IMG/VR virus record: IMGVR_UViG_3300045135_002654
Coordinates: 1-45,958 of that record
DNA length: 45,958 nucleotides
Reading direction: 5' to 3' (one strand)
From: a virus
Shown here: positions 11,949-41,906 of the stretch, in pieces
Position numbering within the stretch: position 1 is the first letter of the stretch
Layout: every line of letters begins with the position of its first letter
Made by a program: the position numbers and the translations under genes
The notes under the pieces: generated by a model
Told to the model about the DNA's origin: nothing
The model's database searches: none
Seen by the model: only the letters and a program-made list of their open reading frames with translations

Positions 11949-12110
11949 ATGGGAAAATATACTACAATACAAATAAAAAGGGAATTGTATAAGGATTTAC
12001 ACGAGTATTGCTGTGAACATGGATATTCGAAAAGTGGGTTGATTGAAAGGTTAATTAAACAAAGAATCGAACAACCTAAACCTCAAAATGTTTTAAGAGT
12101 TAAAACTTAA
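11949..12110 (+). CDS. Small ribbon-helix-helix (Arc/CopG/MetJ-type) DNA-binding protein
   Basis: This 53-residue ORF (ATG 11949, TAA 12108-12110) fills most of the gap between two minus-strand genes and is the only convincing plus-strand gene. Residues 1-40 fit a ribbon-helix-helix repressor: a short beta strand (YTTIQIKREL), helix 1 (YKDLHEYCCEHG), the turn YSKSG, and helix 2 (LIERLIKQRIEQ), with the usual K-x-x-L and S-x-S-x-LI spacing. The basic tail ends VLRVKT. It converges on the nuclease fusion gene and overlaps its 3' end by 11 bases. There is no clear Shine-Dalgarno sequence; an inverted repeat (11929-11946) sits just upstream. It probably acts as a transcription regulator, perhaps of the divergent fiber gene or of itself. 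Confidence 0.7.
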   Translation: MGKYTTIQIKRELYKDLHEYCCEHGYSKSGLIERLIKQRIEQPKPQNVLRVKT

Positions 12111-15100
12111 CTTGAGAGAATCCTTTTTCTTTCTTTATTTCAATAAGACCATCTACAACATCTCTCATTGAATCGATGTGTGATATTACCATTACGAAAT
12201 CAAACTGAGTTTTAAGATATGTAAACAACATAAATAGAGATTGTAGGTTCTCACTATCTAATGTACCAAATCCTTCATCTATCACAAGGAAATTAGGTCT
12301 TGGTAGGTTACATACATTGATTAGAGCAACTCTAATTGCTAAACCACTAATAAACCTTTCCATACCACTACACATTTCCAAACTCCATCTTTGGTCTCCA
12401 TATACAAGATACGCATTGATGTTCTTACCATCAATCTCTAATTGCATTCCAAACTCTACGATTTGTGCAAGGATATTATTTACCTCACCTTCAATCATTG
12501 GTAGAGATTTTTCAATCAACTCATACGATACACCATCTTTAGATAAAGCATTTAAGTAAAAATCAAATAATTTAGATTGTTGTTCTAAATCTTTAACTTC
12601 TTGTATCCTATCTTCAATGGTTTCTTTTTGGTTTTGAAGTGCAGAAACCGTACCGTTTAATTTAAGTATATCAGTATTTACTGTCTTTAATTCATCTTTG
12701 ACAATTGATAACTTTTCTCTAACTCCACTTATTTCGGTTCTTATTTCTTTATTCTTATTGATTTGTTTTTCATTCTTATAATATTCTTCGATAAGTTGTT
12801 CTTGTTGAGTAAGTTGCTGTGAATTTCGTAATTCTTCGGTTTCAATTGTTGATAACTTGTTGATAAGTCCACCAATCTCTCTATCTATTTTATCTTCTTT
12901 ATCTTTTGCATCTTGAAAATTACTCCATTCTTTTTCATAATCTTTTAAAGAATCAATCTGAATTTGTAAATCTAATTTTTCTTTTTCGAATGTTTGTAAT
13001 TCTGATTCTTTCTGTTTTATTTCAGATTCTACTTTTTCTTTTGTTTCTAAAATAGATTTAGAATTATCCATACAGATATCACAATCTTCATTATACTTGT
13101 GAGAATCTAAATGTTCTTTTCTTTCGTATAAAGATTCTAATTTTATATTTACTTTTTCTATTTCACTTTGAGTACTTGTAATCTTTCTTTTTAGTTCTTT
13201 TAATTTACTAATTCCTTCTTCCAAATCTTCTTCATCAAATTGGTCAAGAATTTCTTCTAAAGTGATTTGCTGTTCCTCTCTAAATGTAATTCTATCTTGT
13301 ATAGATTCTTTTTGAGTCTGAATATCCTCTTTCTTGTTTTCAAGGTTTTTCAATCTTTTTTCTAACTCACCAATCGATACACCACTATCTGAATTTAACT
13401 TTACGATTTTCTCATTAAGTTTAATGATTTGCCTATTTAATAAATCTTCTTCTTCTTTTAACGCCTTTTGATTTAATTCAGATAACTTATAAAGGTTTTT
13501 GTTTTCTTTTAAATCAGTGTCGATTTTCGCTAATTTTGTCGTAAAATCATCGGACTTGAATTTTCTGATAAGTGTTGCATTATCTCTATTTTCATCTGCA
13601 GCCTTTTGATATAATTTATCAAAGATATCTACTCCAATAAATTGAGAAAGGATTTCTTTTCTTTCCGATTGTGATTTATCAATAAAGAGTGCATTATTTC
13701 CTTGTAGTGAAAGAGCAGTTAGAACGAAATCTTCAAACTTACCTAAGTATTTTTCAATGTTCTTGTTTGTATCTTTTCTTTGTTCACCATTAAGAGATTC
13801 TACTACTCCAGCATCTTCTTTCCAAAAATCTACATCTACTTTAACAGAGGTTTTCTTTCTAACATATCTAGCTCTTCTTTCTATGAAGTAATCTACTCCA
13901 TCTATCTCGAAGTTAAACTTACAATAAAACTTATCCTTACGATTGTTTAAAACATTCTTAGCAAAGGTTGTACGAGAAGTCTTATCATAGATACAGAAAG
14001 AAAGTGCATCCCACATAGAAGATTTACCACTTGCATTAGGAGCAAAGATACCCATGATACCTTGTGCTTTATCGAATCTGATGAGATTTCCTTCTCCATA
14101 TGAAAACATATTAGAAAACTCAAATGACTTTGGTGTCCATAGAATATTACCTGCTACATCTGATGTATCTATCTGTCCATTAAGTTCTGTATTGATTTGT
14201 TCTATCTTATCTAACTCATCTGATTCTAATAGATATTGTCTTTCTAAGTAATCTCTAATGAGTGAGTTTTGGAAAGTTTCGTTTTTAACATCACCAACAA
14301 TGTTTTTGTTTACCTTTTGATTTGTTTTTAATTGTCCTATCGTATCAGTTCTTGTTACCGTAACTTCAGCTACCTTAAATAATTTCTTAAGTTCGGTGAT
14401 ACATCTTTTCATATCACTTGCTTCTGTATTGGTGAATCTTAATCGTAAACGAGGATACTTTGGAAGTTTTGTACCAACTTCATCGTACACCCATTGGGGT
14501 ATCTTACCATTAACTACATCAACCGTAAGGAACCCATAATCATTATGAATGTGATGTTCTGTAAAAGTTCTTGTTGGAATATCCCAAAGTAGATATCCAT
14601 GATTTTCTAATAACTCACCATGGTTTTGTTGAATCATAGAACCAGCATAAGCAATGTGTTCATAACCAGGTCCAAATGTTTGTCTCTTATGAATATCACC
14701 CAACATGGCCATATCGTATCCATCGAACATATCCACTTGGAATGAGTTTGAAGAAACGGTATAGCCGATATCTGTTTGAGCTTTGTTTACTGGTCCATGA
14801 AATAAAACGATTTTATTTTCTCCATCAACGGTATCTCCTTTAGGCCAATTTTCCTTGTTATCCAATATAGAATAGACAACGAAAGTAAGATTATGGATAT
14901 TATAGATACCAGTATCACGAAGATAATGAATTCGATTATTTCCAAGATTTTCGATAATTGGTGTGAGTACATCTAATCTGTGGGAATTATTTAAATTACA
15001 ATCGTGGTTACCTGTGATTAACACAGTTTCTCTTAACTTCGCACACTCGGTGAGAAACCAACTGATTTCGTGTACGAGTTCGGGTGACATCTCAGTTTTA

Positions 15101-15258
15101 GCATGAGCAATATCACCAGCAATATAAATGAGGGAATCCTCAATTTTATCTTCTTTAACCTGTTTTAAGAATTTTTTGAATACTTGTTTGTATTCCTTGT
15201 GTCTTTGGAGATTACGAATATGTAAATCTGCCAAATGGTAAACTTTATTTATTATCAT
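12100..15258 (-). CDS. Fused Mre11/SbcD-Rad50/SbcC nuclease-ATPase (T4 gp47-gp46 in one chain)
   Basis: The 1052-residue protein joins two usually separate subunits. Residues 1 to about 330 are an Mre11/SbcD/gp47 phosphoesterase, with ADLHIR (Asp11, His13), AGDIAH (Asp49), TGNHD (Asn84, His85), LFHGP (His154) and LGDIHKRQ (188-190). From about residue 373 comes a Rad50/SbcC/gp46 ATPase: Walker A FAPNASGKSS (405-414), two long coiled coils, a zinc-hook CDIC in the middle (near residue 725), the ABC signature CSGMERFISGL, and Walker B NFLVIDEGFGTLD near the end. Both halves keep their catalytic residues. In T4, gp46/47 resects double-strand ends for recombination-dependent replication and host DNA breakdown. 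It starts in a 4-base ATGA overlap with the primase stop. Confidence 0.95.
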   Translation of the reverse strand: MIINKVYHLADLHIRNLQRHKEYKQVFKKFLKQVKEDKIEDSLIYIAGDIAHAKTEMSPELVHEISWFLTECAKLRETVLITGNHDCNLNNSHRLDVLTPIIENLGNNRIHYLRDTGIYNIHNLTFVVYSILDNKENWPKGDTVDGENKIVLFHGPVNKAQTDIGYTVSSNSFQVDMFDGYDMAMLGDIHKRQTFGPGYEHIAYAGSMIQQNHGELLENHGYLLWDIPTRTFTEHHIHNDYGFLTVDVVNGKIPQWVYDEVGTKLPKYPRLRLRFTNTEASDMKRCITELKKLFKVAEVTVTRTDTIGQLKTNQKVNKNIVGDVKNETFQNSLIRDYLERQYLLESDELDKIEQINTELNGQIDTSDVAGNILWTPKSFEFSNMFSYGEGNLIRFDKAQGIMGIFAPNASGKSSMWDALSFCIYDKTSRTTFAKNVLNNRKDKFYCKFNFEIDGVDYFIERRARYVRKKTSVKVDVDFWKEDAGVVESLNGEQRKDTNKNIEKYLGKFEDFVLTALSLQGNNALFIDKSQSERKEILSQFIGVDIFDKLYQKAADENRDNATLIRKFKSDDFTTKLAKIDTDLKENKNLYKLSELNQKALKEEEDLLNRQIIKLNEKIVKLNSDSGVSIGELEKRLKNLENKKEDIQTQKESIQDRITFREEQQITLEEILDQFDEEDLEEGISKLKELKRKITSTQSEIEKVNIKLESLYERKEHLDSHKYNEDCDICMDNSKSILETKEKVESEIKQKESELQTFEKEKLDLQIQIDSLKDYEKEWSNFQDAKDKEDKIDREIGGLINKLSTIETEELRNSQQLTQQEQLIEEYYKNEKQINKNKEIRTEISGVREKLSIVKDELKTVNTDILKLNGTVSALQNQKETIEDRIQEVKDLEQQSKLFDFYLNALSKDGVSYELIEKSLPMIEGEVNNILAQIVEFGMQLEIDGKNINAYLVYGDQRWSLEMCSGMERFISGLAIRVALINVCNLPRPNFLVIDEGFGTLDSENLQSLFMLFTYLKTQFDFVMVISHIDSMRDVVDGLIEIKKEKGFSQVKF

Positions 15259-16196
15259 AAACCTTTTAATTTTTGTGATATAATATCACCGAATCCAGTC
15301 TCTTCTGTTTCTTTAAGTTTTGAATTAATTTTAGAGAATCCCATATCAGATGCATCTTTATCTGATGGTTTAATATTTTTTGTAGTTATTCCTTGATTTT
15401 GGAATTGCATAGTGTAATATAACGCCTGTTCTTGTGCATCTTCATCTAATAGAATATTAATACTTGATACACCCTTTTTATATATAGTATCATTTAAACT
15501 TTTTGGTACGAACTTACCAAGTAGAGGGATTACATTTCGCTTCACTGCCATAGCATCAAATACTCCCTCTACTAAGGTAATAGGTTCATTCCAATTTATT
15601 TGGTTTTCGAAGATGATAACATTCTTCGAAACTGGTGGATTTTTGTATTTAAACTTTTCCTCATCAAATACAGACCGTGCGATGAAGTAATTGAGTCTAT
15701 TATCAGAATCATAAGATGGAATAATAATACGATTGGCATAATGGCCAGAATCACAATACCCGATATTATATCTTCTAATATCCTCTTTGGTAATACCTCT
15801 TTGTTTTGCATAATCCCAAACCTTTCTGAACAAAGGATTTAATCCCTTTGGTTCTTTTAGTAGTGATTGAAACTCATTTGGTAACCTAAGTTCTACCTTT
15901 TCTTCTTCGGTATCTTTTGAATATACAACATAATCATCACCATAGATTTCGTATATTTTCTTTAATTTACGAGAATCTACATGAAGTCTTTTTAATAACC
16001 GTTGTATTTTTCTACCTTTTGCATCACAAACCCAACAATGCCAATATTGGGTTTTTAAGTTAATTTGTAACTTTTTCTTGTGGTGATGACAAAATGGACA
16101 ATAGTGAGCCTGTTCATCGTTTTTCATTGATGTACCAACTCCCAACACCTCATCTAATATTGTTATAACCTGTTGTTTATCGTGGTGTGATAGCAT
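15255..16196 (-). CDS. DNA primase (zinc ribbon plus TOPRIM; gp61/DnaG-like)
   Basis: The 313-residue protein has an N-terminal zinc ribbon, HYCPFC (Cys33, Cys36) and WHCWVC (Cys54, Cys57). A middle region with RGITKEDIRRYNIGYC and IIIPSYDSDNRLNYFIAR matches the DnaG catalytic N-terminal part. The TOPRIM core has ITLVEGVFDAMAV (the catalytic Glu motif) and SINILLDEDAQ (the DxD-like motif). There is no helicase domain, so the replicative helicase must be another protein. At 313 residues it is about the size of T4 gp61 rather than cellular DnaG. A host-type promoter lies 20-50 bases upstream and there is no Shine-Dalgarno. It heads an operon with the gp47-gp46 fusion. Confidence 0.9.
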   Translation of the reverse strand: MLSHHDKQQVITILDEVLGVGTSMKNDEQAHYCPFCHHHKKKLQINLKTQYWHCWVCDAKGRKIQRLLKRLHVDSRKLKKIYEIYGDDYVVYSKDTEEEKVELRLPNEFQSLLKEPKGLNPLFRKVWDYAKQRGITKEDIRRYNIGYCDSGHYANRIIIPSYDSDNRLNYFIARSVFDEEKFKYKNPPVSKNVIIFENQINWNEPITLVEGVFDAMAVKRNVIPLLGKFVPKSLNDTIYKKGVSSINILLDEDAQEQALYYTMQFQNQGITTKNIKPSDKDASDMGFSKINSKLKETEETGFGDIISQKLKGL

Positions 16197-16215: not shown

Positions 16216-16246
16216 CAAATATACGAAATATTTATTAATTATACAA
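16216..16246 (-). promoter_or_regulatory. Bacteroidetes-type promoter for the primase/nuclease operon
   Basis: Read on the minus strand, TTG (16246-16244) is followed by exactly 20 bases and then TATATTTG (16223-16216). This is the -33/-7 arrangement known for Bacteroidetes sigma-70-type promoters (TTTG, about 19 bases, TAnnTTTG). CG directly precedes the TA. Transcription would begin near 16209, leaving a leader of only about 13 bases before the ATG at 16196. The -33 part lies in the 3' end of the preceding gene. Confidence 0.65.
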
Positions 16247-16769
16247 GCTTTTTTTCATTTTTTTTTCTTAATCTTTTATTTAAATCAGGTTCGAATTTTA
16301 ACCCCTTTAAATCAACTTTTTCGGTGTTATAATATAAATCCTCATAATATATTATATCTTCTCTTAAACCCTCTGAAATCTTCTCTAATTTAGTTGTTTG
16401 TCTATTTAACCAATCAATATAATATTTTTTATCTCTTTTGGAATTTTCTTTATCAAACATCGAATCATCCCACACATAAGAATTATCCATATCATTTGAA
16501 TATTCATATAAATGAAATACTGCTATTAGTTGTTCTTCTTTATCTCGTCTATCAAGTATAAAAACTTTATCAAAACTTCTTGTATAATTTTTTAATTCTT
16601 CGTATTTTAATACAGGATTATAATTTAATAATTTTACAATAGTATTAGTATCAAAAGTTTTATCTAATGATTTTGGTTCATGAATAAATTTTAGATTATA
16701 ATTTTTTGAAATTTCTTTACAAAAATATTTACCACCACACCTAATCGAAGATATTACTAAAATTCTCAC
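16239..16769 (-). CDS. Putative sulfotransferase-like P-loop protein
   Basis: The 176-residue protein opens with a strand and loop, RILVISSIRCGGKYFCKEI, in the place where sulfotransferases carry the 5'-phosphosulfate loop (SxRSGSTxL in Stf0-type enzymes). HEP follows at 30-32. Near residues 69-85 is KVFILDRRDKEEQLIAVFHL, resembling the 3'-phosphate-binding LxRRDxxxQAVS segment of the Stf0 group. The start codon is GTG at 16769, in a 4-base GTGA overlap with the stop of the GIY-YIG gene. It is short for the family (Stf0 enzymes are usually above 240 residues). The substrate is unknown. A different P-loop kinase-like role is possible, since the loop GGK also fits a loose Walker A. Confidence 0.5.
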   Translation of the reverse strand: MRILVISSIRCGGKYFCKEISKNYNLKFIHEPKSLDKTFDTNTIVKLLNYNPVLKYEELKNYTRSFDKVFILDRRDKEEQLIAVFHLYEYSNDMDNSYVWDDSMFDKENSKRDKKYYIDWLNRQTTKLEKISEGLREDIIYYEDLYYNTEKVDLKGLKFEPDLNKRLRKKNEKKLV

Positions 16770-17230
16770 AATAAATCTTTTCTAAAAAACTTTCCTAATA
16801 TATTATCATTTAAGGATAATTCATCCTCCAAAACCCTATTATTAAACAACTCTTCTACTTCGTAGTAGGTAAGAGATTTAGGTGTACTACAAAATCGTAA
16901 TATTTTTAGTTGTAAACTATCGTTAATTTTATCTAAATTTTCTTGTTGTTTTGCAGCTTCTGATTCATGAAACCATAATTGAACTGTTGTATTAGAAGAA
17001 CGATAATCTTTCCATTTAGATTCTTTTACCACTTTTCTTTTTCGTTTATATCCTTTTAGTGGTGGTAATGTTCTATGTGAATATAGGGATTTTTTTCCTA
17101 TATAATATTCACCTGTTTGGTGATTTGTAATTTTGTATATAAATCCGATAGTCCCCTCGGGCATATCGGAAATTTCTGTTATCGGTCTACCTTGGTAAGT
17201 CCATCCCATAGTTAAAAATCTTAAAGTCAT
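16766..17230 (-). CDS. GIY-YIG nuclease-domain protein (Seg-like, possibly homing)
   Basis: The 154-residue protein has the GIY-YIG signature: GFIYKITNHQTGEYYIGKKS at residues 29-48 (IY at 31-32, YIG at 43-45), then a basic stretch with Arg53 and WKDYRSS near residue 72, the usual layout in T4-like phage nucleases. The C-terminal part has an Asn/Leu-rich segment but no obvious DNA-binding repeat. ATG at 17230 is chosen because AAAGG lies 7 bases before it. The start lies 44 bases inside the end of the upstream sulfotransferase gene, in another frame, and the 3' end overlaps the next gene by 4 bases. It may be a free-standing homing endonuclease that moved into the sulfotransferase pair, or a repair/recombination nuclease. 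Confidence 0.75.
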   Translation of the reverse strand: MTLRFLTMGWTYQGRPITEISDMPEGTIGFIYKITNHQTGEYYIGKKSLYSHRTLPPLKGYKRKRKVVKESKWKDYRSSNTTVQLWFHESEAAKQQENLDKINDSLQLKILRFCSTPKSLTYYEVEELFNNRVLEDELSLNDNILGKFFRKDLL

Positions 17231-17768
17231 TTTTGTACCTTTCTTTTACCCAATCAATCATCCAATCTTCAGTATAAAAAGTTCTGTAATAACTTTCTTG
17301 TTTCAAAGATGGATGTCTATCGTATATTGGATTTTTGTTTAAATGAGGTAACTTGTAATTATTTAAATTTATTTTTTTAAAAACATATTCCAAATCTTTA
17401 GTAAAATTTTCATACTTTCCTATAAATGAAATATTTTTATTTTCACTACTTCCTGCCTTTGTAAAAAAATATTGAGGCATTAACCATATATCACTTTTAC
17501 TTTCCTTTGACAACAAATCTGAAAAAGTTGAATTATAAATGCCTTTTCTTATGCCGTGTTCATATACAGAACCTAATCTTGTATAAGGATTTCGTACAAA
17601 AGTAAATATAAAATAATCTGATACATCATCGAAAGCTCTAATAGAATCGTGTGATTGAAGAATATTGGTATCAGGTATTTTTGATAGTACATTTGTTATA
17701 CTTGTACCACCAGTTTTAGGTATGTGAATAAAGGCCCATTTCTGAGCATGATTTATGAGTAAACTCAA
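17187..17768 (-). CDS. Sulfotransferase family protein (Sulfotransfer_2-like)
   Basis: The 193-residue protein has the PAPS-binding motifs of the family. AFIHIPKTGGTSI at residues 12-24 is the 5'-phosphosulfate loop, with Lys18. FTFVRNPYTRLGSVYEHG (Arg59, Ser67) is the 3'-phosphate site. A later segment, FIGKYENFTKDLEYVFKKI, is typical of HNK-1/Sulfotransfer_2 enzymes. The only start that keeps the loop is TTG at 17768; no in-frame ATG precedes it before the region of the previous gene's stop. It is compact but has all core motifs. It would transfer sulfate from PAPS to a glycan or other hydroxyl group; the acceptor is unknown. It is separated from a second, weaker sulfotransferase-like gene by the GIY-YIG gene. 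Confidence 0.8.
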   Translation of the reverse strand: MSLLINHAQKWAFIHIPKTGGTSITNVLSKIPDTNILQSHDSIRAFDDVSDYFIFTFVRNPYTRLGSVYEHGIRKGIYNSTFSDLLSKESKSDIWLMPQYFFTKAGSSENKNISFIGKYENFTKDLEYVFKKINLNNYKLPHLNKNPIYDRHPSLKQESYYRTFYTEDWMIDWVKERYKNDFKIFNYGMDLPR

Positions 17769-35512: not shown

Positions 35513-36778
35513 TTATTCTGTGTAGTTATAATCAGAAAGAAAATCTGATAATCTTCCTTTTAAATCTTTAAAATCTCCATTATTGTTTGGTCCAACTTTA
35601 GTTGGGCCAGAAGGTGTTGAAAAGATTTGTGCATTAATTAAATCTATAAGTTCTTCTAATAAACCTTTTAATGTTTCTCCTCGTACAAGTGGTTCAACTT
35701 GACCAGTTGATGGAGATTCTCCTTGTGAATTTGTATTTAATCGTATTTGACCTTCACCTGTGTTTACCCAAACATTTGAAGAATTTCTATCAGTTGTTAA
35801 CAATACTTCATTACCAAAGTCTAATTTAGCACCACCAGTTATATTATCAACTGTTAAAGTTCCTTCATCAGATACAAAAGAATAATTTCCTTTTGAAAAA
35901 AACATCATTTCTGATTCTTTTGATGATATGATAATTCTACCACTATTAATTAATATTTGGTCTCCATCAAGTTTATTAGGATTTTCAAAGTATAAAGTAT
36001 CTTTAAGTTTTATTTGATTTTTTTCCGTACCAGGTATAAATGGTAATTCATACTTTTCACTTGATAAAACAATAATAGAACCATCTTCAACAATATTTTC
36101 TTCTATTAAATCTCCTTCTAATTTTTCAGAATCAGTAGTATCATTTTGTCTATTACGAATTATTATAGTAGGAGAAAATTCTTTTTCTTCATTATTGTAT
36201 GCACTAAATCTAATAGATTGTCCAAATCTTGATTGTAATACTTTATCACCTTCATACAATTTTAATTTATTAATTTTATTTTGTAAAAAGTAATCTCCAA
36301 AAACATATTCCTTATCATTTTTTTCTTCAGAAGCAGGTGTTCCTGTCTGAGATACGGTTGAATAGTTATCAGTTTTATTTGAAGGTTCTTCTTGGGTGTA
36401 TGTTGTTTCTGCTCCATCAGGTGTGGCAACACCTTTATTTAAAAATGGACCAGGTATTCTTTCGTAAAGTTTTCTTGAACCTTTATTAATTAGAACTACA
36501 TCTTCTCCTATAAGTGGTAAATCATAATCACCACCTGTACTATTAGGCATATAGATAGGTAATTTTTCAACAGGTGTATGTTTATCATCAAGAGTTCTTA
36601 TAATAGCACCTCCTATACTTAAAGCACCTGATTTACCATCTGTAAAAAATGGTTTAATTTCTGAGTCATCATCTTCATAAATTCTTACTCTTGGATGATT
36701 TTCATCAAGTATTATATCAACTACTGTACCTGTGAGTATTGATTTAGGTCTTAGGTCTCTACTAAATTGTTTTCTCAT
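35513..36778 (-). CDS. Baseplate hub/spike protein with gp5-type OB-fold
   Basis: The 421-residue protein has an N-terminal OB-like beta-barrel (about 8-120): SILTGTVVDIILDENHPRVR, then DLPLIGEDVVLINKGSRKLY. This is the arrangement in gp5 and VgrG-like hub proteins. A Glu/Asp/Asn-rich linker (about 120-170) follows, then a repetitive beta region (VILSSEKYELPF, INSGRIIISSKESEMMFF, SDEGTLTVDNITGG) that fits a spike stalk, and a helical end. Unlike T4 gp5, no lysozyme domain is inserted; that activity seems to be in the next gene. The start overlaps the 140-aa gene by 17 bases. Confidence 0.8.
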   Translation of the reverse strand: MRKQFSRDLRPKSILTGTVVDIILDENHPRVRIYEDDDSEIKPFFTDGKSGALSIGGAIIRTLDDKHTPVEKLPIYMPNSTGGDYDLPLIGEDVVLINKGSRKLYERIPGPFLNKGVATPDGAETTYTQEEPSNKTDNYSTVSQTGTPASEEKNDKEYVFGDYFLQNKINKLKLYEGDKVLQSRFGQSIRFSAYNNEEKEFSPTIIIRNRQNDTTDSEKLEGDLIEENIVEDGSIIVLSSEKYELPFIPGTEKNQIKLKDTLYFENPNKLDGDQILINSGRIIISSKESEMMFFSKGNYSFVSDEGTLTVDNITGGAKLDFGNEVLLTTDRNSSNVWVNTGEGQIRLNTNSQGESPSTGQVEPLVRGETLKGLLEELIDLINAQIFSTPSGPTKVGPNNNGDFKDLKGRLSDFLSDYNYTE

Positions 36779-37184
36779 TACTATTAACTTTGTGTTTTAA
36801 TTCTTCAACCTCATTAGTTAATTCATCAACTTTTGTTTTTTCGTTTTCTACTTCGTAAACCGTATCTTCTAATTGTTGTAATAGTTGTTCTTTTTCTTTA
36901 TCAGTAAGGAAACCAGTATCTCCTTCTGATTTATCCTTTGAGGCAATCATTCTTTGTGCTATTGCGGCCATCTTTAATAATGCTTCATCGTTTCTTACTG
37001 AAGTATCAACTAAATCTTTTATGATTGGACCAATCACCGCCATATCACCAGAATGTCTAATCACCTTTTTCATTTCAGCAATTAATTCTGATATCCTTTG
37101 TTTCTTGTTTTGTTGATTCTCATAGATATCTTTAAACAATCCACTTAAGTTCTTGCCAGGAAATAATTCAAAATTTGTACTCAT
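36762..37184 (-). CDS. Conserved helical phage protein near the baseplate hub
   Basis: The 140-residue protein begins NFELFPGKNLSGLFKDIYEN and is almost wholly helical, with a C-terminal coiled coil (LEDTVYEVENEKTKVDELTN). Residues 40-70 contain RHSGDMAVIGPIIKDLVDTS. Proteins with this FPGK.L..LF.DIY.N start lie next to the gp5-like gene in marine T4-like phages; I do not know a tested function. It is the first gene of the hub unit, with TATATTTATA-like DNA 23 bases before the ATG and no clear Shine-Dalgarno. It ends 17 bases inside the gp5-like gene. Confidence 0.65.
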   Translation of the reverse strand: MSTNFELFPGKNLSGLFKDIYENQQNKKQRISELIAEMKKVIRHSGDMAVIGPIIKDLVDTSVRNDEALLKMAAIAQRMIASKDKSEGDTGFLTDKEKEQLLQQLEDTVYEVENEKTKVDELTNEVEELKHKVNSNEKTI

Positions 37185-37219: not shown

Positions 37220-37247
37220 AAACAAAAAACCTCTCCGAAGAGAGGTT
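37220..37247 (-). terminator. Intrinsic terminator with a cUUCGg loop
   Basis: An 8-base perfect stem (37228-37235 with 37240-37247). In the minus direction it reads AACCTCTC-TTCG-GAGAGGTT followed by TTTTGTTTT. The C(UUCG)G loop is an extra-stable RNA tetraloop. It closes the small unit that contains the 26-residue ORF, 6 bases after that ORF's stop. Confidence 0.92.
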
Positions 37248-37253
37248 CAGTCT

Positions 37254-37334
37254 CTATTTCTTCTTCTCTTCTTGGAGAGCTTGAAGATGGCCTTGGTTTG
37301 GTTCAAGTGCCATTAATAATTCATCTTTGCTCAT
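37254..37334 (-). CDS. Tiny ORF (26 aa) in its own promoter-terminator unit
   Basis: ATG at 37334 and TAG at 37254-37256 give a 26-residue peptide, MSKDELLMALEPNQGHLQAL plus a Lys-rich end. The ribosome site AAAGAAAGGA lies 6-7 bases before the ATG. An intrinsic terminator follows at once, and a late-type promoter word (37435-37444) lies 100 bases upstream. The peptide looks like a single amphipathic helix with a basic tail. No homologue is known to me. The unit could equally be a small RNA of about 190 bases with a short reading frame. Confidence 0.5.
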   Translation of the reverse strand: MSKDELLMALEPNQGHLQALQEEKKK

Positions 37335-37434: not shown

Positions 37435-37444
37435 TATAAATATT
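37435..37444 (-). promoter_or_regulatory. Putative late promoter of the tiny-ORF unit
   Basis: The minus strand reads AATATTTATA (one change from TATATTTATA), overlapping the last two bases of the polymerase gene. Transcription would begin near 37427 and leave an untranslated leader of about 90 bases before the 26-residue ORF. The leader can form a small hairpin, agacc/ggtct (37413-37417 with 37427-37431). Confidence 0.45.
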
Positions 37445-39104
37445 ATTTAAAGAATTTTTCCATCTTGTGTTCTGTACTACCATGTAGGTTGTAACATCTG
37501 AAATCTTGAACTTCTATATGTGTAGAATTATGTTCGGTTTTTTCAAATCCCCATCCTTCAATACAAGTATAATATCCAAAAGGAAACTTTTGATTTATAA
37601 TCAAATCAAGGTATTTACCATTATCAACACCAACTGTCATTAGAACACAACTCCATTTCCCTCTACGAAGTTTTCTAAAGTTACCAACGATTCCATTAAA
37701 CCAAACTTGGTTACCTTCTTTTTCTGCTCCCATCTTTGGTAGAAATGAATATGAATCCCACCAACCTGTTTTAGTAAATTGGTCATATGAGTTTCCTCTT
37801 TCTTTGTTTCTAATCCACACTCCCGCATCTAATGCCTCTCTACGATGAACCCACTTCTTATAAGATGATTGATTGTGTTTCAAAGTTGATTCCCAAAACT
37901 CTCTTGGTCTACGAGCTTTGTGATATGCAAGAGCCCACACCATCTGTCCATAGGCAAGTGAGTGTCCTTTTGCAAAAGAATATTTACGAAGATGAGTTAG
38001 TTCTTTCCAAATAGATTCATCTTTGATTTTAGATTTAAACTCATCCATAATTTTTTTATTACAATTTTTAAATCCTCTTCTGTATCTATCTGCTTGTGAA
38101 AGAGAACAATCAAGTGTTGATGATATAAAGGTTAGTGCATCTTCATCGTATATAAACTTTGCTTTACCTTCTCTGAAGTAACTTGCCTTTCTACCACCAT
38201 CAGCTGCTGCTGGTCTAATTAGAGCAAGAGCAAGTGCAACATCATACATTGTTTTGGGTTGTAGAGCAAGAATGGTTTTTCTCATCGTTCTACTTTCTGA
38301 TTGTGTTAATCCTAATACATCACCTTTACATAAAAGTTCTGATGTAAGTTCATCATCAATTGGATAATCACATAGTTTTGTTTCTCCATCTAATTCTCTT
38401 AGTTGTGCTAAACCTCGATTACAAAGTAAATCAATCTTAATCCAATTGTTATCTTCTACATCGTACTTATCAACTGCAATCTGATTATCTTTTAAAATTA
38501 GATTCTCTGGTATTCCATCTTTCCATATTACAATACCACCACAATGTTTAGACCAGTTTCTTTGTTTACCCATAAGTTGTTCTGCAATCTCATAACACTT
38601 CTTTTGGGTTTCTTTATCTTTGAATATTTTTTCTACCTTAAAATATTTGGGTACAAACTTTCTATAACCACATTGTCTGATTGCTTCTCGTAGTGCGGTT
38701 TTTTCTGAATACATAACTCTGTTTGAAATCCTACTTACCATATTTGGATATTCTTCACCCACTTGTTCTAAAATAGAATCTCTGATATCATATGGAACAT
38801 CGATATCAAAATCAGGTTGGTCCTCTCGTGTCCAATTTAAAAATCTTTCTAATGGTATGTTTTCTTTGATTGGGTCTATATCATGAATACCCATAAGGTA
38901 AGCAACAAGAGATGATGCACCACTACCACGAAGTAACCAAAGTGAATTGTTTCTTTTTATAATCTGTATGATTGTGTGAACTTGTCTGTAAGTTTCTTCA
39001 AAGTTTTTAGCCTTGATAATTTGAAGTTCTTCTTTTAATCTTTTAACATACTTTGGTTCGGTAGGATATGGTCTTTCGAATAACCAAGTAAGTGGATGTT
39101 GCAT
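37443..39104 (-). CDS. Compact C-family DNA polymerase (DnaE-like), lacking the PHP domain
   Basis: The 553-residue protein is a DnaE/PolIII-alpha-type polymerase core. The palm has LLRGSGASSLVAYLMGIHDI, DPIKENIPLERFLN, then QPDFDIDV with catalytic-type Asp100 and Asp102, and the third Asp in WIKIDLLCNRGLAQL (Asp225). HCGGIVIW (187-194) is the counterpart of HAGGVVI. Fingers motifs are LIRPAAADGGRK and the FAKGHSLAYGQMVWALAYHK region. After about residue 450 comes a small beta domain (GNFRKLRRGKWSCVLMTVGV) that could be an OB-fold. Cellular DnaE has about 1100-1200 residues with an N-terminal PHP domain of about 270; this one begins only 58 residues before the RGSGA motif. The ribosome site AAAGG is 9 bases before the ATG. 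It is probably the phage replicative polymerase. Confidence 0.93.
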   Translation of the reverse strand: MQHPLTWLFERPYPTEPKYVKRLKEELQIIKAKNFEETYRQVHTIIQIIKRNNSLWLLRGSGASSLVAYLMGIHDIDPIKENIPLERFLNWTREDQPDFDIDVPYDIRDSILEQVGEEYPNMVSRISNRVMYSEKTALREAIRQCGYRKFVPKYFKVEKIFKDKETQKKCYEIAEQLMGKQRNWSKHCGGIVIWKDGIPENLILKDNQIAVDKYDVEDNNWIKIDLLCNRGLAQLRELDGETKLCDYPIDDELTSELLCKGDVLGLTQSESRTMRKTILALQPKTMYDVALALALIRPAAADGGRKASYFREGKAKFIYDEDALTFISSTLDCSLSQADRYRRGFKNCNKKIMDEFKSKIKDESIWKELTHLRKYSFAKGHSLAYGQMVWALAYHKARRPREFWESTLKHNQSSYKKWVHRREALDAGVWIRNKERGNSYDQFTKTGWWDSYSFLPKMGAEKEGNQVWFNGIVGNFRKLRRGKWSCVLMTVGVDNGKYLDLIINQKFPFGYYTCIEGWGFEKTEHNSTHIEVQDFRCYNLHGSTEHKMEKFFK

Positions 39105-39131: not shown

Positions 39132-39158
39132 AAAAACCCCACAAAAAATGTGGGGTTT
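39131..39158 (-). terminator. Intrinsic terminator after the 76-aa membrane-protein gene
   Basis: A 10-base perfect stem, AAACCCCACA/TGTGGGGTTT (39134-39143 with 39149-39158), has a 5-base A loop on the plus strand. In the minus direction it ends in GGGGTTTTTTATA. It closes transcripts of the 39195-39425 gene and separates them from the polymerase gene. Confidence 0.92.
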
Positions 39159-39194: not shown

Positions 39195-39425
39195 TTACTT
39201 CTTAATAATGTGGTAAAGTACGAAAGCACCAACCAGTCCTAATAGACCTTCAGCACTCAAACTTCCTAAAATGCCCATGATGTTATCAACTACTGATACT
39301 TCTGGCCAAAATGGAATGTTTGCACCTTTGAATAATACTTCAAGTACAACTCCCAAGGCAACGATACTAATACCGATTTTTGTTAGTTCATCAGCCCATG
39401 TGCCGATTTTCTTTAAAAAATCCAT
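39195..39425 (-). CDS. Small two-helix membrane protein, holin candidate
   Basis: The 76-residue protein has two hydrophobic segments, IGISIVALGVVLEVLF (about 17-32) and LLGLVGAFVLYHII (about 60-74). They are joined by a loop with NIPFWPEVSVVDNIMGILGS, and the ends are Lys-rich. This FWP.VSVVDN.MG loop is seen in small conserved proteins of marine T4-like phages. Size and topology fit a class II-type holin, and it has a strong ribosome site (AAAGGAGAA) and its own terminator. Holin function is not shown by sequence alone. The lysozyme-like gene (42940-43527) is 3.5 kb away. Confidence 0.55.
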   Translation of the reverse strand: MDFLKKIGTWADELTKIGISIVALGVVLEVLFKGANIPFWPEVSVVDNIMGILGSLSAEGLLGLVGAFVLYHIIKK

Positions 39426-40181: not shown

Positions 40182-41906
40182 TTAAAGAATTTTCTTTTTT
40201 ACAACATAAGAACCAAGAATCAAAATATCCATTTCACAATTTAGAAATGTTTTAATTGCATCTTCTGGTGTTAAAACCATTGTTTGGTCTTTAAGATTAA
40301 ATGAAGTATTGATTACGATAGGAAATTTATTTACTTTTTGTAATTCTCCTAATAATAAAGAAATATATCTATTAGAATTGTGGGTTACTGTTTGTACTCT
40401 TGCTGAACCATCTACATGAGTTATAGAAGGAAGTTTATCTTTAAATCTTTCTTTTACTTTAACAACTTGATTCATATAAGGAATTTCGGAATCATAATTA
40501 AAGTAAGTTGTTAAAGAATCAAAAGTACAGATTGGTGCAAAAGGTCTAAATCCTTCTCTCTTTTTTATAACTCTATTTAAACGAGATTTCATTTGAGGGT
40601 CACATGGATTTGCTAAAATAGAACGATTACCCAATGCTCTTGCTCCAAATTCAATTCTATCTTGAAATAAACCAATAATATTATTTTCTGTAATTTGTTC
40701 TGCAATAAATGGAATCATAGTTTCTCTTGGTTTCCATTCATAATAAACATCTTTAGAATAATCATTAAGTGATTTTAAAATATCTTCTTTTGTATAAAAA
40801 GGTCCTAAAAATGGATTTGTGTTAACAACCCTTTTTACATTTTTGTTTTTATATACTTCATTAAGTGCAGCTCCAATACAAGAACCAGCATCAGATGGTG
40901 CAGGTGGTATCCAAACATTTTGGAATTTTGTTTTTTCTTTTATCTTTCCATTTGCCGTTCCATTATATGCACAACCCCCACTTAAACATAAGTTTGGTGA
41001 TTCTGTAATTTTGTATAATCTATCTAATAATTTAAAGAAATATTTTTCGTATTGAAATTGTACAGATGCCGCTAAATCTTTATAATCTTGAGTAAGTGGT
41101 TCCTCAGGTAATCTATTTGTGATACCTAATTGTTCTCCTAATTTTTCATTAAACATATGAGTATCAGAATATTCATATGTAAAATATTTCATGTTTAATT
41201 TATATTCTCCTTTTTCTGATTCTTGTATTATATCTTCAAACTTTAAATTAAACTTAGTTGGATTACCATAAGGGGCTAATCCCATTACTTTGTACTCACC
41301 TTCATTTGGTTTAAATCCAAGAAAGGCCGTCATAGTAGAATAAAACATTCCTAATGAATGAGGAAAGTTTACACTTTGTAATTCTTTTATTTTATTATCT
41401 TTACCAATTCCAAGCGAAGTTGTTTTCCATTCTCCAACTCCATCTACCGAAAGAATCGCAGATGAATCAAATGGTGAAGTGTAATATGAATATGCTAAGT
41501 GAGAGGAGTGGTGGTCTGTAAAAGATACTTTTGTTTTCTTTCCTTTAATATTTTCTATATCTTTTAATAAAGATTTATAAGATTCTTTATTTCTATTGAG
41601 TATTAAATTGTTATTTTTCTTCGAAAAAAATTCATACCATCTTTTAGGTTTTTTAGAAGTACTTTCTTCTATCCTATTTAATTTTTGTTCAGGACTTTCA
41701 TAAAAACAAATTATATCAATATCTTCTTTTGTAATTGAATTAGTTTCTAATATCCAATTAATTGTATTGTGAGGAAATGAAAAGTCATGTTTAATACCTG
41801 TAAATCTTTCTTCTTCACAGGCAGATATTACCTTACCATCTTTAACTAAACAAGCAGCACTATCATGAAATCCACAACTTATTCCTAAAACATATTGATT
41901 TTTCAT
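40182..41906 (-). CDS. O-carbamoyltransferase of the NodU/CmcH/TobZ family
   Basis: The 574-residue protein has the full two-domain layout. The N-terminal Kae1/TobZ-like domain has GISCGFHDSAACLV (His14, Asp15), ACEEERFTGIKHDFSFP, DHHSSHLAYSYY, SSAILSVDGVGEW and NLCLSGGCAYNGTANGKI. The C-terminal YrdC-like domain has GLFQDRIEFGARALGNRSIL, REGFRPFAPIC and VINTSFNLKDQ. These enzymes use carbamoyl phosphate and ATP through carbamoyl-adenylate and put a carbamoyl group on a hydroxyl of a sugar or other small molecule. The length matches TobZ (about 570), so it should be active. It is 2 bases after the gp55-like gene, at the end of that operon. Likely targets are a phage glycan, an unusual nucleotide or a cell-wall molecule. 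Confidence 0.9.
   Translation of the reverse strand: MKNQYVLGISCGFHDSAACLVKDGKVISACEEERFTGIKHDFSFPHNTINWILETNSITKEDIDIICFYESPEQKLNRIEESTSKKPKRWYEFFSKKNNNLILNRNKESYKSLLKDIENIKGKKTKVSFTDHHSSHLAYSYYTSPFDSSAILSVDGVGEWKTTSLGIGKDNKIKELQSVNFPHSLGMFYSTMTAFLGFKPNEGEYKVMGLAPYGNPTKFNLKFEDIIQESEKGEYKLNMKYFTYEYSDTHMFNEKLGEQLGITNRLPEEPLTQDYKDLAASVQFQYEKYFFKLLDRLYKITESPNLCLSGGCAYNGTANGKIKEKTKFQNVWIPPAPSDAGSCIGAALNEVYKNKNVKRVVNTNPFLGPFYTKEDILKSLNDYSKDVYYEWKPRETMIPFIAEQITENNIIGLFQDRIEFGARALGNRSILANPCDPQMKSRLNRVIKKREGFRPFAPICTFDSLTTYFNYDSEIPYMNQVVKVKERFKDKLPSITHVDGSARVQTVTHNSNRYISLLLGELQKVNKFPIVINTSFNLKDQTMVLTPEDAIKTFLNCEMDILILGSYVVKKKIL

Follow-up and report, generated by a model that had tools for sequence, protein, structure and literature searches.

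A single-chain, PHP-less C-family polymerase core in a T4-like phage, a probable second DNA polymerase

What does a C-family DNA polymerase core that has lost its PHP domain do in a T4-like phage, and does it stand in for the B-family polymerase gp43 or work beside another replicase? The folds of T4 gp43 and of C-family polymerases are unrelated. The question is raised by an open reading frame of 553 codons, here called mini-DnaE, at positions 37443-39104 of a 45,958-base virus record from IMG/VR; this 46-kb fragment is the whole stretch analysed and is referred to as the window. The gene lies on the minus strand, as do the motifs, hairpins, small frame and flanking genes described below. The T4-like kinship of the window is apparent from baseplate wedge proteins, a gp46-type nuclease and a primase, and its nearest records are LR756508.1 (484 kb), Microcystis phage Mel-JY01 (190 kb) and Flavobacterium phage immuto (160 kb).

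A C-family core and the domains it has lost

A preliminary description, made from the sequence, had given the gene these coordinates, which are correct, and had quoted four motifs, all of which were found in the protein: RGSGASS (residues 59-65; 38910-38930), PDFDID (residues 97-102; 38799-38816), HCGGIVI (residues 187-193) and KGHSLAYG (residues 379-386). Two Pfam profiles cover the first part of the chain, namely DNA_pol3_alpha (PF07733; residues 15-227, E 6.5e-43) and DNA_pol3_finger (PF17657; residues 242-324, E 1.7e-15). In a phmmer alignment of the protein with Pol III alpha of E. coli (2hnh), from which the E. coli residue numbers were counted, D98 and D100 of the PDFDID motif and D225 (38430-38432) pair with D401, D403 and D555, which we take to be the catalytic residues. 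This Asp triad is invariant in all 37 aligned relatives, as are R59, G60, S61, S64 and S65 of the RGSGASS motif.

An AlphaFold2 model built from the alignment of the 37 relatives reached a pLDDT of 87.9 and a pTM of 0.85. In VIA-align, model residues 2-539 superposed on residues 307-1122 of Thermus aquaticus alpha (3e0d_A; 511 of 553 residues, Z 33.2, rmsd 3.7 A). The superposition on PolC took in 410 residues (Z 29.7), and Foldseek matched the model to 2hpi (E 4e-23); matches other than Pol III alpha, with either program, were mostly OB-fold proteins. Profiles, alignment and model agree on a single chain with palm, short thumb (alignment gaps near residues 146-175), fingers and OB domain, and the comparisons with Thermus and E. 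coli that the preliminary description had called for bear out its assignment. Mini-DnaE is a genuine C-family (Pol III alpha) polymerase core in a T4-like genome. It evolves under purifying selection, with a dN/dS of 0.059 both for the window and G002 and for L005 and G001, the two least diverged pairs; values for more distant pairs are near saturation.

The PHP domain is gone. It is the part N-terminal of residue 307 in T. aquaticus alpha, where the region covered by the model begins, and no Pfam match to PHP was obtained in mini-DnaE. Since the open frame starts just four codons before the ATG (557 codons in all), no in-frame PHP is possible; the upstream stop rules out a hidden N-terminal domain and shows the short N-terminus, as previously described, to be real. 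A PHP encoded as a split partner gene was likewise ruled out for ten window-clade records, including LR756508.1, in none of which the PHP profile found a match (controls, 14 of 14 positive). Across 16 contigs of the wider clan the same profile gave one match over the cut-off and one under it, the former (G046) being part of a separate, split full-length DnaE and not of mini-DnaE. According to PMC12926913, the PHP domain is universal in bacterial C-family enzymes. Because PHP was tested for and is absent, mini-DnaE should not be filed as DnaE1, DnaE2, DnaE3 or PolC.

At the other end, the loss is less complete than the preliminary description had it. The C-terminal tau-binding domain is indeed missing, with everything beyond the OB domain of T. 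aquaticus alpha lacking in the VIA-align superposition and just a 14-residue tail in its place. However, the model retains an OB-fold domain at about residues 459-540 (37485-37730), of which residues 463-539 superpose on PriB/SSB folds (Z 7.4-8.1) and which is included in the match of residues 2-539 to 3e0d_A; the wording that most of the C-terminal part had been lost was therefore too strong, and a reading without any C-terminal part is corrected. The HhH clamp-binding domain was not detected in mini-DnaE (no HHH_6 match), whereas all three PHP-bearing phage DnaEs scanned did match.

A widespread family and a probably mobile cassette

Eleven viral loci encode proteins 76-99% identical to mini-DnaE of the window, and that of LR756508.1 is 53.5% identical. 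A profile scan returned 80 loci, 48 of which are further relatives at 35-42% identity, called marine here by inference and not from their records; the other 32 are near relatives already known or C-family matches at 23-29% identity. Complete ORFs of 542-583 aa were present in 38 of the 48 marine loci, with the remaining 10 cut by contig ends, and all 38, like the gene in the window, encode the protein as one chain. An upstream stop, present in 44 marine loci, limits the part ahead of the match to 67 residues or fewer, which leaves no room for PHP. Mini-DnaE thus belongs to a widespread single-chain PHP-less family. Three other searches returned no relatives: a genome-contig scan with query A1, a search of viral contigs with the LR756508.1 protein, and a tblastn search of loci L056-L185 with query P0001 (0 matches).

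These data bear on the view that mini-DnaE is a relic in decay or without catalytic activity, or a decoy that binds replication proteins of the host. Such a fate would be in line with the large domain loss and the sporadic occurrence of the gene, but it is very improbable in view of the triad kept in 37 of 37 relatives, the dN/dS of 0.06, the complete ORFs in 38 of 48 marine loci and the confident full core fold of the model.

In the window and in G002, mini-DnaE sits between a gene for a small membrane-like protein of 76 aa (39195-39425; holin-like, by eye) and the gene that opens the baseplate cluster (36762-37184). In two relatives, L057 (flanks 99% and 94% identical) and L063 (80% and 79%), these flanking genes adjoin without mini-DnaE, and the stretch between them equals the terminator and promoter-like stretch found after mini-DnaE in the window. 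This includes the counterpart of a terminator-like hairpin downstream of the gene (37227-37248). A second such hairpin upstream (39134-39158) ends the previous gene and forms the leading edge of the cassette, and a 26-aa ORF (MSKDELLMALEPNQGHLQALQEEKKK; 37254-37334), read by eye, follows mini-DnaE within the inserted segment. Around the gene, two terminator-like hairpins were found vs. 0.9 expected in shuffled sequences, while promoter-like matches were not above chance (8 vs. 9.6 expected). Hence, the terminator that had been described right before the gene stands as a terminator-like hairpin (39158-39134), but the promoter does not rise above chance level.

In the window, then, mini-DnaE forms a cassette that close kin lack at the corresponding site, and in this lineage it has probably moved between sites as a promoter-gene-terminator unit. 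Its location varies: in the G001 group it lies between a 137-aa ORF and the primase, and in G003 it is near tail genes. Mini-DnaE of the window and that of G001 are 78% identical vs. 24-67% for other shared genes, which points to either transfer or slow evolution of the gene, two causes not told apart by these values. At the same spot, L064 carries a different cassette (1467-1802) with a terminator, a promoter-like stretch and an ORF of about 43 aa, which suggests that the site is an insertion hotspot.

Within the wider clan, the neighbourhood is that of replication genes. Of the 48 marine loci, 44 have a gp41-type helicase within 4 kb of mini-DnaE and 24 have a primase there, the flanks being often cut short; gp46/47 was not found within the flanks of mini-DnaE in this clan. 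Mini-DnaE directly precedes the primase in all five G001-type loci that extend far enough, in an operon that continues to the primase and a gp47-gp46 nuclease fusion. In the window itself, mini-DnaE is among tail genes, away from the primase (15255-16196).

Several further genes of the window were recognized by eye. Genes for gp47 and gp46 (SbcD/SbcC) appear fused at 12100-15258 (1052 aa), likewise in G001 and Mel-JY01. A 574-aa carbamoyltransferase-like protein is encoded at 40182-41906, and 5 of the 48 marine loci have a homolog of it in the vicinity of mini-DnaE. Two sulfotransferase-like ORFs (17187-17768 and 16239-16769; IPKTGGTS-type motif) lie between the primase and the tail genes and are missing from G001 at that place.

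Other polymerases in relatives and the proposed role

The implied replacement of gp43 by mini-DnaE did not hold up as the default reading, which was dropped, given that mini-DnaE coexists with another polymerase in two relatives. LR756508.1 encodes a PolB as two ORFs (259363-262416 and 265422-267287) with intein-like inserts, after which come an ORF of 262 aa and, by eye, a gp44-like clamp loader. G046 (178 kb) carries a split full-length DnaE comprising a 482-aa ORF (PHP and the start of the palm) and a 901-aa ORF with the rest. The preliminary description had coupled another polymerase elsewhere with a broken active site as grounds for abandoning its claim; another polymerase does exist in these relatives, but the active-site residues of mini-DnaE are intact.

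Some details of these genes were also recorded. One of the inserts in the LR756508.1 PolB is internal and one is possibly split across a 3-kb gap holding other genes, and the clamp loader also seems to contain an insert. The DnaE ORFs of G046 (54614-56062 and 57290-59995) are interrupted exactly at the PDFD motif, with small ORFs between them. LR756508.1 further gave an RNase_T match and a weak PolA-like match (E 1.4e-5) below the cut-off.

Among the other window-clade records, all fragments, PolB and PolA were each found in 0 of 9, the matches being confined to LR756508.1. Since the window's record is itself a 46-kb fragment and none of the clade's genomes found was complete, the main polymerase of this phage is unseen. 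Searches for PolA, PolB and C-family enzymes were also empty in the contigs of 37 of 80 baseplate-kin loci, which shows just their absence from fragments.

That mini-DnaE is nevertheless the main replicase in place of gp43, running on a clamp of host or phage and without proofreading of its own, is in our judgement quite improbable. Neither PolB nor PolA was found in 16 marine contigs with mini-DnaE, including contigs of 108 kb and 88 kb, both with uvsX beside helicase and primase genes and the larger also with gp46/47, and the gp41-type helicase nearby in 44 of 48 marine loci would suit a replicase. However, these contigs are all classed as linear and many are possibly fragments, a different replicative polymerase is present in LR756508.1 and in G046, and close kin lack mini-DnaE at the window's site. 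Also against it are the relatives of G048, a mini-DnaE-bearing record akin to PA5oct-like jumbo phages (52-53% identity in helicase and terminase): group 2.2 jumbo phages carry PolB according to PMC7824862, which names Atu_ph07 in the context of that group, and PA5oct, judged from Atu_ph07, would fall in it.

The C-terminal tail of mini-DnaE, EHKMEKFF (residues 545-552; 37449-37472), is PIP-box-like in sequence and resembles the tails of gp43-type PolB. Compared with the PIP-box pattern Qxxhxxaa it reads ExxMxxFF, with E instead of Q at the first position; in PMC3012046, from which the pattern is taken, a PIP-box tail joins gp43 to gp45. All 11 window-clade loci that include the C-terminus end in [ML]E[KN]FF, several of these being near-identical. 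The PolB tails of kin are NLSKFFNFK in Mel-JY01 and QAQKFFSM in LR756508.1, T4 gp43 ends in ASLDFLFG, and FF-type tails were counted manually in 18 of the 24 PolB loci read, out of 50 found. Among 1019 ORFs of 100 aa or longer in six genomes, eight had the pattern [LMIVA]xxFFx0-3$, and five of the eight were polymerases. The mini-DnaE tail of LR756508.1, NQFFW, misses the hydrophobic position. The FF tail was found in none of 42 marine relatives, 37 of which end in a looser h-polar-x-aromatic tail vs. 30 of 182 background ORFs.

It had been left open whether mini-DnaE recruits the host clamp and epsilon. According to PMC3919608, the epsilon site of E. coli alpha sits on PHP; because this site is lost with the domain and the tail is gp43-like, a phage clamp is the better guess. 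The candidate clamps beside PolB in LR756508.1 and Mel-JY01 had no Pfam match, and with hhalign their match to T4 gp45 was not significant (E 0.046, probability 1%).

Taken together, we favour, with a probability of about 60%, the reading that mini-DnaE is a complete, active single-chain core that serves the phage as a second polymerase next to its main replicase, tethered to a clamp and without proofreading, perhaps extending primers. Its gp43-like C-terminal tail, acting as a PIP box, would tether it to the phage's own T4-type sliding clamp. With neither PHP nor epsilon site it should not proofread, and it would therefore probably make short patches, most likely in primer extension at the helicase-primase and otherwise in repair or lesion bypass. 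B. subtilis DnaE extends primers for PolC, and the primer-extension role proposed here is modelled by analogy on DnaE3 of that species.

A more specific scheme for a marine T4-type replisome, in which mini-DnaE would extend primosome-made primers on a PCNA-like clamp and hand over to a B-family or other replicase, is put forward tentatively, as a possibility short of a probable one. If it were true, mini-DnaE would correspond to eukaryotic Pol alpha, as a bacterial-type enzyme within a replisome of archaeo-eukaryotic type.

Repair or lesion bypass might instead be the principal task, with mini-DnaE acting as a translesion polymerase, DnaE2-like in function, for recombination-dependent replication. 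The lack of both PHP and epsilon site, the status of second polymerase in two relatives, the G001-type operon that runs on to the primase and the gp47-gp46 fusion, and the sporadic, cassette-like occurrence would all suit such a task. We nonetheless consider it unlikely, as the wider clan tracks helicase and primase and gp46/47 was not found in the same flanks. The widespread single-chain PHP-less family makes it testable whether T4-type phages run two polymerases on one clamp.

Comparison with known C-family and phage polymerases

Mini-DnaE shares with bacterial DnaE1/Pol III alpha (E. coli, T. aquaticus) the core, the Asp triad, the fingers and the OB fold, but lacks PHP, a detectable HhH and the tau-binding domain and is about half as long. 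B. subtilis DnaE3 is a chromosomally encoded C-family second polymerase without working proofreading. It keeps a degenerate PHP, in contrast to mini-DnaE, a phage gene with none; the DnaE groups and the reduced PHP of DnaE3 are treated in PMC3919608. With T4 gp43, mini-DnaE has in common the T4-type phage context and, judging by sequence, the tail, but not the 3'-5' exonuclease domain. In Gordonia phage Suzy (gp64 and gp65), the polymerase chain (811 aa) is also without PHP; however, there the PHP is encoded by the adjacent gene (E 8e-37) and HhH is kept, whereas no PHP gene was found in the ten records of the window clade.

Viral replicases were reportedly surveyed in a 2011 study. In the literature searched, no description of single-chain mini-DnaE was found, and an earlier one may exist. 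The closest known system comes from group 2.2 jumbo phages, whose phage-specific minimal Pol III alpha is encoded as two separate proteins beside PolB; the authors propose cooperation with PolB, in one strand or in repair (Iyer et al. 2021, PMC7824862). Like mini-DnaE, this enzyme is a PHP-less minimal C-family core in T4-like phages. PolB accompanies it, as it does mini-DnaE in LR756508.1, while none was seen in the fragments. Unlike the group 2.2 form, which is split in two and, in that source, without PHP or other Pol III domains, mini-DnaE consists of one chain of 553 aa that includes an OB domain and ends in a PIP-like tail.

The profiles of the single-chain and split units matched weakly (hhalign E 1.7e-5, probability 55%), and the clan HMM gave no match below E 0.01 in Paride (1-50 kb) or Atu_ph07 (40-75 kb). 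G048 holds both forms, a 551-aa mini-DnaE and a 188-aa ultra-small C-family-like unit (76470-77036; MPDIDIDF, KLDFLN, KKAHAIAYA) that is 50% identical to Paride_0017 of a jumbo phage. Because it combines one chain, OB domain and tail, because G048 has both units and because the profiles match weakly, we regard single-chain mini-DnaE as a new form of a known kind of polymerase. With about 550 residues it would serve as a convenient model enzyme, showing what a C-family polymerase can do without the PHP domain reported in PMC12926913 as constant in bacteria, and it may bridge ordinary DnaE and the minimal Pol III alpha that jumbo phages encode in split form.
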